Below, piece after piece: positions 6,499 to 42,109 of a stretch of 64,000 nt of DNA (position 1 is the stretch's first letter; the number at the start of each line of letters is the position of its first letter). The translations under genes and the position numbers were made by a program. The DNA is taken from positions 53,145 to 117,144 of the forward strand of contig CALLOA010000044.1 in the NCBI GenBank assembly GCA_938005265.1. Direction: 5' to 3'. The notes under the pieces were generated by a model, which had not been told where the DNA came from, did no database searches, and saw only the letters and a list, made by a program, of their open reading frames with translations. The DNA comes from an uncultured Granulosicoccaceae bacterium. Lineage in GTDB: Bacteria > Pseudomonadota > Gammaproteobacteria > Granulosicoccales > Granulosicoccaceae.

Positions 6499-6993
6499 AT
6501 GATTTCCATTCAAAGCGTAAAAAAGTCTTTTGCAAATAAACCCCTAAAGGTGCTCCGCTGGAGCGCTGTGGCTCTGTTTCTGGGCTCCCAGGCCTTTGCT
6601 GCCGACGGTATGACCGTGGTTGAAAGTAACCATAGTGTTGCTGATACCGTGACAAAACTTGCCAAGGTTTTGGAAAGTAAGGGTATGAACGTGTTTGCTC
6701 GTATTAATCATGCCGAGGGTGCCGCGAAGGCTGGTTTGGAACTGCGTCCTACTGAGGTACTGATTTTTGGTAACCCGAAAGTAGGTACGCCGCTCATGCT
6801 ATGTTCCCAGAGTATCGCTATCGACTTGCCGCAAAAAATGCTGGCCTGGGAAGATGCGGACGGGAAAGTATGGCTAGGCTACAATGCGCCTGAGTTTCTG
6901 AAGACGCGTCATGCTACGGAAGGTTGTGACGAGGTGTTCGCAAAGGTCACTGGTGCACTGGGTAACTTTGCCGCGGCAGCTGCAGCGGAGTAA
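6499..6993 (+). CDS. Periplasmic DUF302 protein
   Basis: A 164-residue protein with a signal peptide (hydrophobic stretch VALFLGSQAFAADG, cleavage after AFA) followed by one DUF302 domain. Family features seen are VTKLAKVLESKGMNVFARINHAEGA, LIFGNPKVGTPLM and the late YNAPEFL. The family is small, alpha/beta and of unknown biochemical role; it is often exported. The ribosome site CAGGAG lies 6-7 bases before ATG at 6499. A long hairpin follows the stop codon. Confidence 0.85.
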   Translation: MISIQSVKKSFANKPLKVLRWSAVALFLGSQAFAADGMTVVESNHSVADTVTKLAKVLESKGMNVFARINHAEGAAKAGLELRPTEVLIFGNPKVGTPLMLCSQSIAIDLPQKMLAWEDADGKVWLGYNAPEFLKTRHATEGCDEVFAKVTGALGNFAAAAAAE

Positions 6994-7007: not shown

Positions 7008-7042
7008 CTGCCAGTAAAAGCCGTTCCGGTTTTCACTGGCAG
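7008..7042 (+). terminator. Hairpin after the DUF302 gene
   Basis: CTGCCAGT AAAAG CC pairs with GG TTTT CACTGGCAG around a short loop, about 14 pairs. It is followed by CAACATTTTGTTG rather than a pure T-run. Confidence 0.55.
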
Positions 7043-7129
7043 CAACATTTTGTTGACGAGTACTTTTAATTGCAGTTGCTTTCTACTTACCAGGTCATCT
7101 TCCATGGCCAATAAACGCTTGGAAACGCT

Positions 7130-8578
7130 ATAAAACCGTCATTCAGTTTTATACACGCAGCGGATTTGCATATCGACAGCCCCATGAGAGGGTTGAGTTT
7201 GCACGAAGATGCGCCGATCGAAGAAATTCGTGGTGCGACCAGACGCGCCACAACAGCTATGGTGGACCTGGCACTGCGCGAGCAGGTGGATTTTCTCGTT
7301 ATTGCTGGCGATGTTTTTGATGGTGACTGGGATGACATAGGAACCGGGCTGTTTTTCAATCGAGAGATGTCGCGCTTGCGTGATGCAGATATTCCGGTAT
7401 ACCTCATCAGAGGTAATCATGATGCAAAATCAGTCATCACTCGAACTCTCTCCTATCCTCCCAACGTATACGAGTTCTCCACCAACAAGGCTGAAACCAT
7501 TCTTCATGAAGGCCATGAGGTGGCACTTCATGGCCGCGGTTTTCCTGAGCGACAGTTAAGTGAAAATATTGTTGCTGATTACCCTGCAGCCTGTTCCGGC
7601 AAATTCAATATAGGCTTGTTGCACACCAGTTTGGCGGGTTCTGCTGAACACGATACGTATGCACCCTGTTCTCAGGATGAGCTGGAAGGTGCGGGTTATG
7701 ACTATTGGGCGCTCGGCCACATACACCAACCCGAGATTATTTGCGAAGAGCCGTGGATTGTGTATAGCGGAAATACCCAGGGGCGGCACATAAGAGAAGC
7801 CGGTAAGCGTGGCTGCTTCATTGTTAACGTAATGCCGTCAGGTCAATCTTCCGTTGAATTTCGTGTACTTGACAGTGTCAGGTGGCAATTAATGGAGATT
7901 GAAATCACTGGCCTGAAAACGCTTGTTGAAATTCTTGATAAAGTCGATTCTGTAATCGCCCAAGAGATAGCAGAAACTCCGTTAGCGGTGCTAAGGCTTG
8001 TATTCACAGGGGTAAGCGAGCTGGCATCGAAACTGGAACGGGAGCGTGATCAGTTAAACGATGAGTGTCTATCGATCGCACAGCGCTACAATGGTGGCAA
8101 AGTCTGGGTCGAGTCAGTGCGTTTGAATGTCAGTGGCAATGTCGAATCATCAGGGAGCTTGAGTCAACATGATGACTTTGGTGCTGAAGTGCTGGCTGCA
8201 TTGCAACCATCAAAGCTTGCCACCACATTTGCCCGCGAACGCTGGAGCGTGGAAGTTGAAAAACTGCTCAAAGATCTTGGTTCAGAGCAGAGGGCTGCGA
8301 TTGAAGCTTTGTTGCCAGACTGCCAGTCGGTCATTGAAATCGAGGCTGAAACTGACGAAGCAAACGATGCGAATAATTTACAACAATCGCTTTTGTTTGA
8401 AACTGACACGTTGCCCGAACAATCATTAAATGAAGCTTTAAGTGAGATTCACCCTTTTTTGAACGAGCTGCGTAACCTGACGTTGTCTGCACTTGATTGG
8501 TCTGAATCGGATGTCAAAGGTGAAAGTGAAGTCAAGCAGTCGGATACTGACAAAACAACTGCGGCGCGCAAGTTGTGA
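7130..8578 (+). CDS. YhaO/SbcD-like DNA repair metallophosphoesterase
   Basis: Nuclease subunit of a YhaO/YhaN (SbcD/SbcC-like) complex. The track starts at TTG 7166 (470 aa), but the open frame upstream encodes SFIHAAD joined to LHIDSPMRGL, which is the universal phosphoesterase motif I with the metal-binding D-x-H. The TTG start would delete that Asp, so the true start is upstream. The frame runs back to a TAA at 7112-7114 and has no ATG, GTG or TTG; ATA at 7130, with TTGGA about six bases before it, gives an N-terminus of family-like length. Later motifs are intact: GDVFDGDWDD, RGNHDA, LLHTS and GHIH. The stop overlaps the next start (GTGA). An ATG at 7104 opens only a nine-codon peptide in another frame. 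Confidence 0.85.
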   Translation: MKPSFSFIHAADLHIDSPMRGLSLHEDAPIEEIRGATRRATTAMVDLALREQVDFLVIAGDVFDGDWDDIGTGLFFNREMSRLRDADIPVYLIRGNHDAKSVITRTLSYPPNVYEFSTNKAETILHEGHEVALHGRGFPERQLSENIVADYPAACSGKFNIGLLHTSLAGSAEHDTYAPCSQDELEGAGYDYWALGHIHQPEIICEEPWIVYSGNTQGRHIREAGKRGCFIVNVMPSGQSSVEFRVLDSVRWQLMEIEITGLKTLVEILDKVDSVIAQEIAETPLAVLRLVFTGVSELASKLERERDQLNDECLSIAQRYNGGKVWVESVRLNVSGNVESSGSLSQHDDFGAEVLAALQPSKLATTFARERWSVEVEKLLKDLGSEQRAAIEALLPDCQSVIEIEAETDEANDANNLQQSLLFETDTLPEQSLNEALSEIHPFLNELRNLTLSALDWSESDVKGESEVKQSDTDKTTAARKL

Positions 8579-11500
8579 GAATTTCAGTTCTCGATATTCC
8601 GGCATTTGGTCCGTTTACTGACTTTCGTCATGAATTTACACGAAACAGTGATACAGACTTTCATATATTTCTCGGAAATAACGAATCTGGTAAAAGTTCT
8701 TTGCTCCGGGCAATTAGCGATCTTTTGTACGGTATCCCGCAGCGCACACCAGAAAACTTCCGGCATGATTACAGAAAACTGCTGTTGCAGGCGGAGCTTT
8801 ACAATTCACGGAATGAGCGATTATCCATAAAAAGGCGAAAAGCTAAAGCAGATAATCAACTCACCACGGAAGATGGCGCTCCTTTGAGTCAGGAGCAGTT
8901 AAGCGCCTTCATGGGTAATCTCAGTCGCGACAATTTCCAGTCCTTGTTCGGTCTTGGTGCTGAGGAGCTTCAGCAGGGAAACGATCTGCTGTTGAGCACC
9001 CATGGTGCCTTAGCTGAAACAATAGCAGCTGCATCCAGCGGTAGCTTGCATTTATCCCACGCAGTTCAGTCGTTGCTGCAGCAATCCGAAAAAATATACA
9101 AACGCAATGGTAACTCGCAACTGAGGGATATCAGGAAGAACATTAAAGATTTGGAAATTCAAATGCGTACTGCTGTAACTCGTCCGCAGGCCTGGAATGA
9201 TTTAAACCAGCAACTAACAACAGTACAAAACAGACAGGAATTGATAAGGAAAGAACTTGAGGAGCTTGATCAGGCCATAAATCATACCGACAGAATGAAA
9301 CAGGGTATCGAATTAGTAGGCCAGTTGAATAGGCGCCAGAGGGAATTAGACGAATTAGGGTTGCCAGCAAAACTGGTTAGTGGTTTTGCAAAAAATCTGA
9401 CACCTTCATTAGCCAATTGGCAAACTGCAAATAACGCAAAAGCTACGGCTGAAAAACGAGTTGACAGGCTAAAGTCCGATCTCGAACAATTGGATTATCG
9501 CAAGGATGTCATTGCCGCTGAAGAGGCTATCGATCAAGTAAATGCAAATCTTAATATATATAAAGACCGGGTAGAGCAGGCTGTTGAGTTAAGACACGTT
9601 CTGTCCAGCAGGAAACTTAAGCTCGATACAGAACTAAGGAAATTCTCTGACAAGGAAGATAGTGAAGGGATAGGCGCAATTCGTCTTTCTTCTGCACAGG
9701 AATTAAATTGTTCAGAAAAGTATTCTCTCTACAGCGAATTGATAGAAGAGTCCGAGATTTTAGAAAAAGAAATAGATAGTGTCCGCGCACAGCTTCTTGA
9801 GCTGCAGAGCCAATATGCAGGAGAGAGCTCTGAGTCCGGTGAAACAGATGCTTCTGCAGGAATCAATGCAGATTTTCTGAACACACTAAATACAGGGATT
9901 GAAACGGGGCATCAACAGCTGCCTATAGCGAAAAAATTACCGTTGTTGGAAGATGAGCTAGATCGGAAAGCGACGGAACTTGATTTGTTGATATCCCGTC
10001 TGAGTATGGAAACTCGTCTTGATGATGTCCGTGGCGCGGCTGTACCACGTCGCGAAACACTGAATGAATACAGGGATAAGTTTGAGAATCAATCGCGGCA
10101 AAAAGAAAAACTACAATCTGAGTCTGTTGAGCTGGACTATGAAATCAGTAAAATTGAGACCGAGTTAGCCTCACTTCTGGGTGAGCGTGTTTTGCCAAGC
10201 CGAAAATCATTGCAAAGCGCTCGTGATTATCGTGATCAACTGTGGGGCGAATTTAACGGGACAGAAACTACTGAGTCTGGGAGTAAAAAGCAGGGGTCAA
10301 AGAATCTGGTTTCAGCTATTGACAAGGCTATCATCAGGGCAGACGGTGTTGCAGATGAACTCATTTTTAATGCTCAATTAGTTGCTGAAACTGATCAAAA
10401 AAAGGAATCTATTAAGTTACTAAAGTCCAAAAGGAGCAACGTTCAAGCACAGCAGGAGCAATTGATTGAACAAGAACAAGCCATAAAGCTTGATTGGAAA
10501 GGTGTGTGGAGTGGTATAAAAAGCAACCCGGAATCACCGGCTTCAATGCTTGACTGGTACGATGACTGGCAAAAAGCCTGTCAAGCCATGGCCGAGCTCG
10601 AAAAACAGCGTCAACTATACCAGCAACAAATATCCAGTGTTAGCGAATCATCGAAGCGTTTGTCAGCGATTCCTGGTCTCCTGCCGAGTTCAGAGACAGG
10701 CAAGGTAAACAATGAGCATGACGCCAAGTTCCTTGAAGCGCTAATCAACGCAGCAAGCAACAAGAAAAAGAAAATTGATGAGTCTCAAGGTGCAATACAG
10801 CGCACCCTGGAGCTGCAAAACCAATACAAAGAAAAATTGACCCGGTTAAATTCGGCAAAAGATAAACTGGATATTCGTTGTGTTAGTGCAGAGCAGGAAA
10901 TGGTTATCGCTTTTGCTGACATCGGTATCAACGTCAAGCGGATTTGGACTGAACACACCAAATCCGGGTATAAGGATAAAACGCCACCGTTATCGGCCAC
11001 TTCTGCTCAGCGTTTGCTAGAAGATCGTTGTAAATTGTTAGACAGTTGGGGTGAGTTTGAACGCGATGAAAAGCACTTGCAGCAACTCGACGCTCTCATT
11101 GCCGAGTACCAGAAAGAAGTCGGTAATTTAGCTGAAAAGTTCCACATCAAACAGAATCTGGACAATACCGAACTGCTCTGTAATCAGCTGGTTCAATTGC
11201 GGCGTGAGCAGCGTTCGATCTTTGAGAAACGTCAGAATCTGGAAAACGAATTTTCCAAGGATACTCGACTCTTGTCGGAATCTGCTGACGAATTGCAACG
11301 TAATTCCGACTTATTAGCGGATTTTCTTGTTATGTTCGGAGTGAATTCACCCACTGATTTGTTGGCAATGCAAAGCAAATTTGTAGAAGCTGATGGATTA
11401 ATGAATGAGATCAGAGTCATAAAGGATAATCTGTCCGTTGTGTCTGCCGCCAGTGATTTGCAGGCTTTTATCGCTGAAGTACTTTCGCATGATCCGGACA

Positions 11501-12189
11501 GGTTGGTAGCCACAGGGGCGGGCTTGAAATCGAAAAAACTGGAGTTGGTAGAAGAAAACGAGAGCCTTATTGCCAATAAAGCCCTGTTGCAAAAACAACT
11601 GGATGAAGTGCATGAAACCCATGGTAGTGGGGCCGATATCCGGCAAAATCTGGAGTTGGCACTGGTGGAGCAAAGGCAAGCAATACTCGAATTTGTGAAG
11701 ACCAGGCTGGTGGCGGATATGCTTAAACAGACGTTAGAGGATTATCGTGATAAAAATGAAGGGCCCTTAATAAACGATGCGTCCTCAATGTTTAAACGAT
11801 TGACCTGTAATATTTACGAGCGTATTGCATTGGCTTACACAGACGATGAACAGCCTTATATTAAAGGGGAGCGTGCAAATGGTGAGCAAGTACAAGTAGA
11901 TGCGATGAGTGATGGAACACGCGATCAGTTGTACCTTTCGATGCGCCTGGCTGCTTTGAAAATGCGTTTGAATGCGCACGAACCTATGCCATTGATAGTT
12001 GACGATTTGTTGATTACTTTTGATGATGTACGTACAGAAGCAGCAATGGATGTGTTGCTGGATATTTCAAATCAAACTCAAGTTATACTGTTTACTCACC
12101 ATGCAAGAGTGGCTGATGTTGCCAATAGTAAATTGTCTGAAAAAGATGTGCAGATCACCGATTTAACGGCTGCGCAAATGTCTGCCTGA
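8575..12189 (+). CDS. YhaN/SbcC-like SMC-type ATPase
   Basis: A 1204-residue coiled-coil ATPase, partner of the upstream phosphoesterase. The Walker A region is FLGNNESGKSSLLRAISDLL near residue 32, and the C-terminal Walker B region is PLIVDDLLITFDD near residue 1143, with a signature-like segment MSDGTRDQLYLSMRLAAL just before it. The long middle part is rich in Glu, Lys and Gln and predicts extended coiled coils, as in SbcC and Rad50. The start is GTG at 8575, overlapping the previous stop by four bases, so the two are translationally coupled. A role in handling DNA ends is inferred from the family. Confidence 0.88.
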   Translation: MRISVLDIPAFGPFTDFRHEFTRNSDTDFHIFLGNNESGKSSLLRAISDLLYGIPQRTPENFRHDYRKLLLQAELYNSRNERLSIKRRKAKADNQLTTEDGAPLSQEQLSAFMGNLSRDNFQSLFGLGAEELQQGNDLLLSTHGALAETIAAASSGSLHLSHAVQSLLQQSEKIYKRNGNSQLRDIRKNIKDLEIQMRTAVTRPQAWNDLNQQLTTVQNRQELIRKELEELDQAINHTDRMKQGIELVGQLNRRQRELDELGLPAKLVSGFAKNLTPSLANWQTANNAKATAEKRVDRLKSDLEQLDYRKDVIAAEEAIDQVNANLNIYKDRVEQAVELRHVLSSRKLKLDTELRKFSDKEDSEGIGAIRLSSAQELNCSEKYSLYSELIEESEILEKEIDSVRAQLLELQSQYAGESSESGETDASAGINADFLNTLNTGIETGHQQLPIAKKLPLLEDELDRKATELDLLISRLSMETRLDDVRGAAVPRRETLNEYRDKFENQSRQKEKLQSESVELDYEISKIETELASLLGERVLPSRKSLQSARDYRDQLWGEFNGTETTESGSKKQGSKNLVSAIDKAIIRADGVADELIFNAQLVAETDQKKESIKLLKSKRSNVQAQQEQLIEQEQAIKLDWKGVWSGIKSNPESPASMLDWYDDWQKACQAMAELEKQRQLYQQQISSVSESSKRLSAIPGLLPSSETGKVNNEHDAKFLEALINAASNKKKKIDESQGAIQRTLELQNQYKEKLTRLNSAKDKLDIRCVSAEQEMVIAFADIGINVKRIWTEHTKSGYKDKTPPLSATSAQRLLEDRCKLLDSWGEFERDEKHLQQLDALIAEYQKEVGNLAEKFHIKQNLDNTELLCNQLVQLRREQRSIFEKRQNLENEFSKDTRLLSESADELQRNSDLLADFLVMFGVNSPTDLLAMQSKFVEADGLMNEIRVIKDNLSVVSAASDLQAFIAEVLSHDPDRLVATGAGLKSKKLELVEENESLIANKALLQKQLDEVHETHGSGADIRQNLELALVEQRQAILEFVKTRLVADMLKQTLEDYRDKNEGPLINDASSMFKRLTCNIYERIALAYTDDEQPYIKGERANGEQVQVDAMSDGTRDQLYLSMRLAALKMRLNAHEPMPLIVDDLLITFDDVRTEAAMDVLLDISNQTQVILFTHHARVADVANSKLSEKDVQITDLTAAQMSA

Positions 12190-40928: not shown

Positions 40929-41237
40929 ATGGCAAAACGCAAGACACGTAGAGAACGTAGATCATTTACTGACGAGTACAAGCAGCAGGTGCTTGAGTTG
41001 ATTCGTGCTGGTGACAAATCGGTATCGCAGATCTGTCGTGATCTGGATTTGACAGAATCAACGGTTCGTCGCTGGATGACACTTGATCAGGAATCAAACG
41101 GAACAATGAAGCAGAACAGTCTGTCTGAGACCGATCAGCAAGAGCTGGAACGGTTACGTGCTGAGAACAAACGCTTGAAAACAGAGCGTGAAATATTAAA
41201 AAAAGCGACGGCCTTCTTTGCCAGAGAATCGAACTGA
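40929..41237 (+). CDS. IS3-family transposase OrfA
   Basis: A 102-residue protein with an N-terminal helix-turn-helix (RRSFTDEYKQQVLELI, VSQICRDLDLTESTVRRWM) and a C-terminal leucine-zipper-like coiled coil (ELERLRAENKRLKTEREILKKA). It binds the IS ends. A run of seven A residues at 41198-41204 near its end is the likely -1 frameshift site that joins it to OrfB. Confidence 0.93.
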   Translation: MAKRKTRRERRSFTDEYKQQVLELIRAGDKSVSQICRDLDLTESTVRRWMTLDQESNGTMKQNSLSETDQQELERLRAENKRLKTEREILKKATAFFARESN

Positions 41238-41275
41238 AGTTCGAGTTTGTATCGGTAGAGAAGGCCTATTTCACG

Positions 41276-42109
41276 GTGACAGACCTTTGCAAGGTGCTGG
41301 GGATTTCGACCTCTGGCTATTACGCCTGGCTCAAACGCACACCCAGCAAGCGTCAGCTTGAAGACGACAAACTATTGGGGCTCATCAAACCCATTTTCGA
41401 AGCTAGCAGACAGACATATGGCAGCCCTCGGGTTCACGACGCGCTCAGAGATCTTGGTCATCAGGTGGCGGAAAAACGGGTTGCCAGACTTATGCAGGAA
41501 AACGGCCTTGTCGTGCTCTCCAGGCGTAGTTGGCGATGTGTCACCACTCAATCAGATCCTAGCCATGGGGTAGCGGCCAATGAGCTGGACCGCGATTTCA
41601 ATGCTACTAGCGTTAATGAGAAATGGGTGACTGATGTGACCTTCGTGCCGACTGATGAAGGCTGGTTGTATTTGGCATCAATGATCGATCTTTATAACCG
41701 TGAAGTGGTCGGTTGGGCAATGAGCGATACCAACGACACCAAGCTGACATTGAAGGCGCTCGACATGGCATTGGAATCTAGAAATCCGCCCAAAGGTCTT
41801 ATCCAGCACTCAGATCGAGGCAGTAACTACACGGCAAACGATTACCGCCAGGCGCTAACAGATCGCGGTATAAAAGTGAGCATGAGCCGCAAGGGTAATT
41901 GTTGGGATAACGCCGTTGCAGAGAGCTTCTTTGCTACTATCAAGAAGGAACTTATCCACCGGTTCAGATTTTCAACACGTAGAGAAGCTGCAGCGGCAAT
42001 ATTCGAATATATTGAAGCATTCTATAACCGTGTGCGTAAGCATTCGAAACTTGGTTACAGCAGCCCTGTAGAATTCAGAACAAATAATCAAGCTGCTAAC
42101 GCAGCATAA
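41276..42109 (+). CDS. IS3-family transposase OrfB (DDE integrase domain)
   Basis: A 277-residue catalytic part with the rve/DDE fold: the first Asp is in KWVTDVTF near residue 120, the second in LIQHSDRGSNYT near residue 181, and the Glu in DNAVAESFFATIKKEL near residue 216. GTG at 41276 opens the track ORF, but the same frame is open back through the OrfA A-run and reads into typical OrfB N-terminal sequence (FEFVSVEKAYFTVTDLCK). So the working enzyme is probably an OrfAB fusion made by -1 frameshifting. Confidence 0.93.
   Translation: MTDLCKVLGISTSGYYAWLKRTPSKRQLEDDKLLGLIKPIFEASRQTYGSPRVHDALRDLGHQVAEKRVARLMQENGLVVLSRRSWRCVTTQSDPSHGVAANELDRDFNATSVNEKWVTDVTFVPTDEGWLYLASMIDLYNREVVGWAMSDTNDTKLTLKALDMALESRNPPKGLIQHSDRGSNYTANDYRQALTDRGIKVSMSRKGNCWDNAVAESFFATIKKELIHRFRFSTRREAAAAIFEYIEAFYNRVRKHSKLGYSSPVEFRTNNQAANAA

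Follow-up and report, generated by a model that had tools for sequence, protein, structure and literature searches.

Where does translation of the YhaO-type nuclease gene of this uncultured Granulosicoccaceae bacterium begin? In the window, which is the whole stretch of 64,000 nucleotides analysed, the frame of this gene spans 7115-8575 without a stop, its 487 codons being intact. A base-by-base check reveals no ATG, GTG or TTG in this frame from the TAA at 7112-7114 to TTG 7166. For this reason, a mechanical open reading frame finder picks TTG 7166 as the start and yields 470 amino acids (aa). The coordinates of the locus are collected in Table 1.

The gene pair and its missing canonical start

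Pfam recognizes Metallophos (PF00149, E 3e-14) in the YhaO-type protein and AAA_27 (PF13514, E 5e-53) in the product of the adjacent gene. The former scores 52.3 bits against the NCBIfam SbcD model TIGR00619, below the curated cut-off of 77.65, and it is accordingly termed YhaO-type and not SbcD proper. The metallophosphoesterase motifs DxH, GDxxD, GNHD, H and GHxH are all kept and occupy invariant columns of the alignment of order members (alignment A1). Judged by these domains and motifs, the gene pair is a YhaO-YhaN operon of the Mre11-Rad50/SbcD-SbcC kind with an intact yhaO.

At the amino acid level, TTG 7166 is not acceptable as the true start. It would remove the residues S-F-S-F-I-H-A-A-D, i.e. 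the first strand together with the metal ligand D12, and both D12 and H14 of the DxH motif are invariant across the 12 order members of alignment A1. As TTG 7166 lies past an invariant metal ligand, it cannot start a working nuclease, and the true start is to be sought upstream. In PDB matches, the N-terminal region also lines up with the DxH of Mre11 proteins of known structure; in the Mre11 structure 1ii7 the first residue falls just ahead of this motif. The coding signal of the frame begins at 7124.

Downstream of the TAA the codons are ACG 7115, CTT 7118, GGA, AAC, GCT, ATA 7130, AAA and CCG, followed by TCA, TTC, AGT, TTT 7148, ATA, CAC, GCA, GCG, GAT 7163 and TTG 7166. The preliminary description had placed the metal-binding motif SFIHAAD-LHID upstream of TTG 7166, had limited the possible starts after TAA 7112 to ATA, CTT and ACG, and had pointed to a TTGGA ahead of AUA 7130. 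The base check confirms all three points, the first together with the invariant DxH, and locates the TTGGA at 7119-7123.

Table 1. Features of the yhaO-type locus (window coordinates)
Feature	Coordinates	Strand	Remarks
Short open reading frame ATG..TAA (MANKRLETL*)	7104..7133	+	9 codons; AGGT 8 nt upstream; stop TAA 7131-7133
TAA stop in yhaO frame	7112..7114	+	Bounds the start on the upstream side
TTGGA, weak Shine-Dalgarno-like GGA	7119..7123	+	6 nt before AUA; -3.3 kcal/mol with anti-Shine-Dalgarno
Perfect 8-bp inverted repeat TATAAAAC-9 nt-GTTTTATA	7129..7153	+	Spans AUA; weak hairpin, -4.2 kcal/mol
Putative AUA start codon	7130..7132	+	-6 from F of FIH, in homolog start zone
yhaO/SbcD-like (Mre11-family) nuclease gene	7130..8578	+	482 aa from putative AUA start; stop TGA 8576-8578
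DxH, first metal-binding motif (D-L-H)	7163..7171	+	Contains TTG 7166, first canonical start codon
YhaN-like partner (AAA_27, SMC-like ATPase) gene	8575..12189	+	GTG start overlaps yhaO stop as GTGA

Homolog start positions and the proposed AUA initiation

The alignment of the start region in relatives, a check put forward in the preliminary description, shows that homologs mostly start at -2 to -6, and AUA 7130 stands at -6. The homolog set consists of order members and 80 sequences from GTDB genomes, scored by the FIH motif pattern; a few loci are not scorable by this pattern, and L017 among them visibly has ATG. In 101 of the 102 other homologs whose N-terminus could be resolved, a canonical start lies no more than 12 codons from the FIH motif, and in 98 of these 101 the nearest one is 2-6 codons before the F. 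In the L010 gene the sole canonical start is a GTG 20 codons before FIH. The window gene is the only one among the 103 YhaO-type homologs examined that has no in-frame canonical start before the motif.

ATA 7130 aligns with the ATG of L012 and L016 (MNSPFRFVH, compared with IKPSFSFIH of the window gene) and is the sole near-cognate codon in the homolog start zone. By our estimate, based on 7 of 61 codons per position, chance alone would place a near-cognate codon in this five-codon zone in roughly one case out of two; the position of ATA 7130 is thus fitting but is not proof. ACG 7115 and CTT 7118 are less likely starts: they are 10-11 codons before the motif and have a Shine-Dalgarno energy of -1.5 kcal/mol. 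Homolog start positions favour AUA 7130, one of the options given in the preliminary description, over these two codons.

We propose, at about an even chance and as the most likely of the readings considered, that yhaO translation starts directly at AUA 7130, a rare and weak near-cognate start of a known kind. Ribosomes would initiate at this codon, the initiator fMet-tRNA reading it to give fMet-KPSFSFIHAADLHIDSP, and the N-terminus of the product is predicted to be Met-KPSFSFIHAADLHIDSPMR. As with infC, pcnB and ccpN, IF3 proofreading would limit the output of yhaO and hold it at a low level. Ribosomes that terminate at the overlapping UAA of the short 7104 open reading frame might add to initiation at AUA 7130.

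With an assumed standard anti-Shine-Dalgarno sequence, the Shine-Dalgarno energy at AUA 7130 is close to the median of yhaO homologs (-3.3 versus -3.8 kcal/mol), whereas for the near-cognate infC starts of the order, where tested, it lies between -6.1 and -9.8 kcal/mol. The Shine-Dalgarno of AUA 7130 is therefore ordinary for yhaO and weak for a near-cognate start.

The AUA start is not conserved, and every other resolved yhaO homolog has ATG, GTG or TTG. Close relatives in which conservation of the AUA could be followed were not found in the bacterium's own genome, its genus, family or order, GTDB, or the genome and viral contig collections, nor is there a second yhaO copy in its own genome. 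The nearest YhaO-type protein is 47% identical within the order and about 50% identical in GTDB. A base error in the assembly, or a consensus mixed from several strains, could be concealing a canonical start. Either a single substitution at 7130-7132 or the loss of one base from the stretch between ATG 7104 and 7130 would suffice to hide an ordinary ATG, and ATG 7104 is preceded by an AGGT Shine-Dalgarno of its own. No second sequence of the species was found in the collections searched, and the AUA reading, unproven, rests on one assembly, which is fragmented into 212 contigs. On the other hand, the start region has no long homopolymer, and joining ATG 7104 to the frame would put a 15-residue leader before FIH, which is almost absent among homologs. 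Nor does the window show other signs of broken frames; its 57 coding frames have no unexplained break, the exception being the orfA/orfB overlap of an IS3-type element. A hidden canonical start is on balance somewhat unlikely, but it is an alternative to be taken seriously.

A search of the other window genes for a domain or clear coding signal before the first canonical start gave none except the IS3-type orfB at 41192. The insertion element occupies 40929-42109, and its orfA (40929-41237) overlaps orfB (41192-42106). Overlapping orfA and orfB with a frameshift are the usual IS3-type arrangement.

The start codon may also have been lost by recent mutation, with yhaO poorly expressed or silent in this strain and decaying. 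The AUA is unique to this genome and is preceded by a weak Shine-Dalgarno, and the same-genus genome G002 (95% complete) has no yhaO match, so members of the genus can probably do without the gene. We nevertheless consider decay rather unlikely, as the 487-codon frame is unbroken, every catalytic motif is retained and the partner gene is intact.

The short open reading frame and the upstream region

The UAA of the 7104 open reading frame overlaps the putative AUA start as AUAA (7130-7133). Ribosomes could begin at ATG 7104, translate MANKRLETL, terminate at UAA 7131 and restart on the overlapping AUA. The stop/start overlap and the AGGT ahead of ATG 7104 are consistent with such termination-reinitiation, and the next junction in the operon, between yhaO and yhaN, is likewise a 4-nt overlap, GTGA. 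The AUAA overlap is, however, not improbable in itself, as it follows from ATA then A plus any upstream ATG. In addition, when AUGA was changed to AUAA in Escherichia coli, there was no downstream reading without a Shine-Dalgarno (PMC9955659). Coupling can accordingly at most assist AUA 7130, and as the route by which yhaO is translated it appears very unlikely.

The preliminary description also considered a -1 shift from the ATG 7104 peptide, and this was not borne out. The frames of the 7104 open reading frame and yhaO are related correctly for a -1 shift, but the sequence ATG GCC AAT AAA CGC TTG GAA ACG CTA TAA (7104-7133) contains no canonical slippery heptamer of the form X XXY YYZ. The frameshift product would carry the same atypical 15-residue leader, and the start region folds no better than shuffled sequences (z 0.50). 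A programmed frameshift can be set aside as extremely improbable.

The inverted repeat that spans the AUA is possibly a chance occurrence. The window holds 26 perfect 8-bp inverted repeats of such kind, and with this number and the folding result nothing is built on the repeat at 7129-7153.

A scan for promoters and terminators gave nothing over threshold. Visual inspection shows an imperfect 16-bp inverted repeat, CTGCCAGTAAAAGCCG/CGGTTTTCACTGGCAG, which was not called by the scan, at ~7008-7042 in the gap between the upstream DUF302 gene and yhaO. It is probably a terminator, and this terminator-like stem implies that yhaO probably has its own promoter; among the candidate yhaO promoters none was convincing. 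The DUF302 gene (6499-6993) encodes a small secreted-type protein. Of an NCBIfam model that bears the name CrcB, it matches the C-terminal half only, and this below the cut-off, so an automatic naming as a fluoride channel would mislead.

Leaderless initiation was considered for the window yhaO and rejected, as no -10-like box is rightly spaced from ATG 7104 or ATA 7130. In the sister genus g4 (L006, L007, L009, L011, L012, L016, L025, L026, L031), a TATCCT, TATACT or TATTCT box is present ~7-10 nt before the yhaO ATG. These sequences suggest that the yhaO mRNAs of this genus are leaderless or nearly so. In L010 and L028, TATCCT lies 6 nt upstream of a GTG, and a start at this GTG lengthens the protein by about 20 residues.

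Probable near-cognate starts in the order, and known systems

The AUAA overlap and the near-cognate infC starts of the order provide context that was absent from the preliminary description. In the window's own genome the infC start codon appears to be ATT, as judged from the bases that precede the conserved IF3 N-terminus. It appears to be ATA in L163 and L170, ATC in L174, and mostly ATT in other order members; the start codon thus seems to vary within the order (loci L163, L170, L174, L176), with AUA in two genomes and AUC in one. Given the two apparent ATA starts, it is very probable that members of the order do initiate at AUA.

A different near-cognate codon is found in the SbcD genes of SbcCD-type operons in the sister genus g3, where CTG is the sole possible start in all six species. 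The loci, L132-L137 (genomes G031, G027, G011, G013, G025 and G019), are 59-100% identical to the L021 query. In each, CTG directly precedes R/K-F-I-H-T-S-D-W-H (RFIHTSDWHLG), with an in-frame stop shortly upstream. Shine-Dalgarno-like AAAGGG, GGAG or AAGAG sequences have energies of -4.2 to -6.1 kcal/mol, and the CTG is kept in all six loci although the more distant species have diverged in the DNA ahead of it. In the L021 SbcD the next canonical start, a TTG, is again behind the metal ligands, and start callers would truncate this protein likewise. A literature search found no report of an SbcD with a CUG start. The CUG-start SbcD of the sister genus is better supported than the AUA-start yhaO. 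Perhaps the Mre11/SbcD-family nucleases of the order are throttled by near-cognate starts, AUA in yhaO and a conserved CUG in SbcD, such that output is low and follows IF3 levels; we regard this as speculative and improbable.

If AUA initiation at yhaO is real, a DNA-repair nuclease joins the few bacterial genes known to start naturally with AUA. The locus also illustrates that start-codon callers limited to ATG, GTG and TTG can cut off catalytic residues, since TTG 7166 is inside a metal-binding motif; the CUG-start SbcD presents the same pitfall in six species.

The organization of the gene pair is that of YhaO-YhaN, SbcD-SbcC and Mre11-Rad50, where a metallophosphoesterase nuclease gene is likewise followed by an SMC-like ATPase gene. 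With respect to the start codon, the nearest comparison is infC, likewise a chromosomal gene with an AUU, AUC or AUA start and found in the same order. Unlike that of yhaO, the near-cognate start of infC is conserved in kind, and the Shine-Dalgarno ahead of it is strong (-6 to -10 kcal/mol). In E. coli the infC near-cognate start is autoregulated by the gene's own product.

In Staphylococcus aureus, the AUA starts of infC, ccpN and citZ have been mapped (PMC13009471). In poor medium, output from the ccpN and citZ starts is about 10% of that from AUG; in rich medium, ccpN reaches up to 30% (PMC13009471). In ccpN of S. aureus and Bacillus subtilis and in S. aureus citZ, as proposed for yhaO, AUA is a natural chromosomal start, and it lowers output (PMC13009471). 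The ccpN and citZ starts were demonstrated by ribosome profiling and reporters, and the published AUA-start genes carry extended Shine-Dalgarnos (PMC13009471), whereas the yhaO AUA is read from sequence and has a weak one. E. coli pcnB has an experimentally proven AUU start (Binns and Masters, 2002, as cited in PMC13009471). It offers a further parallel, a nucleic-acid enzyme held back by an inefficient start codon, as proposed for yhaO, although its codon is AUU and not AUA.
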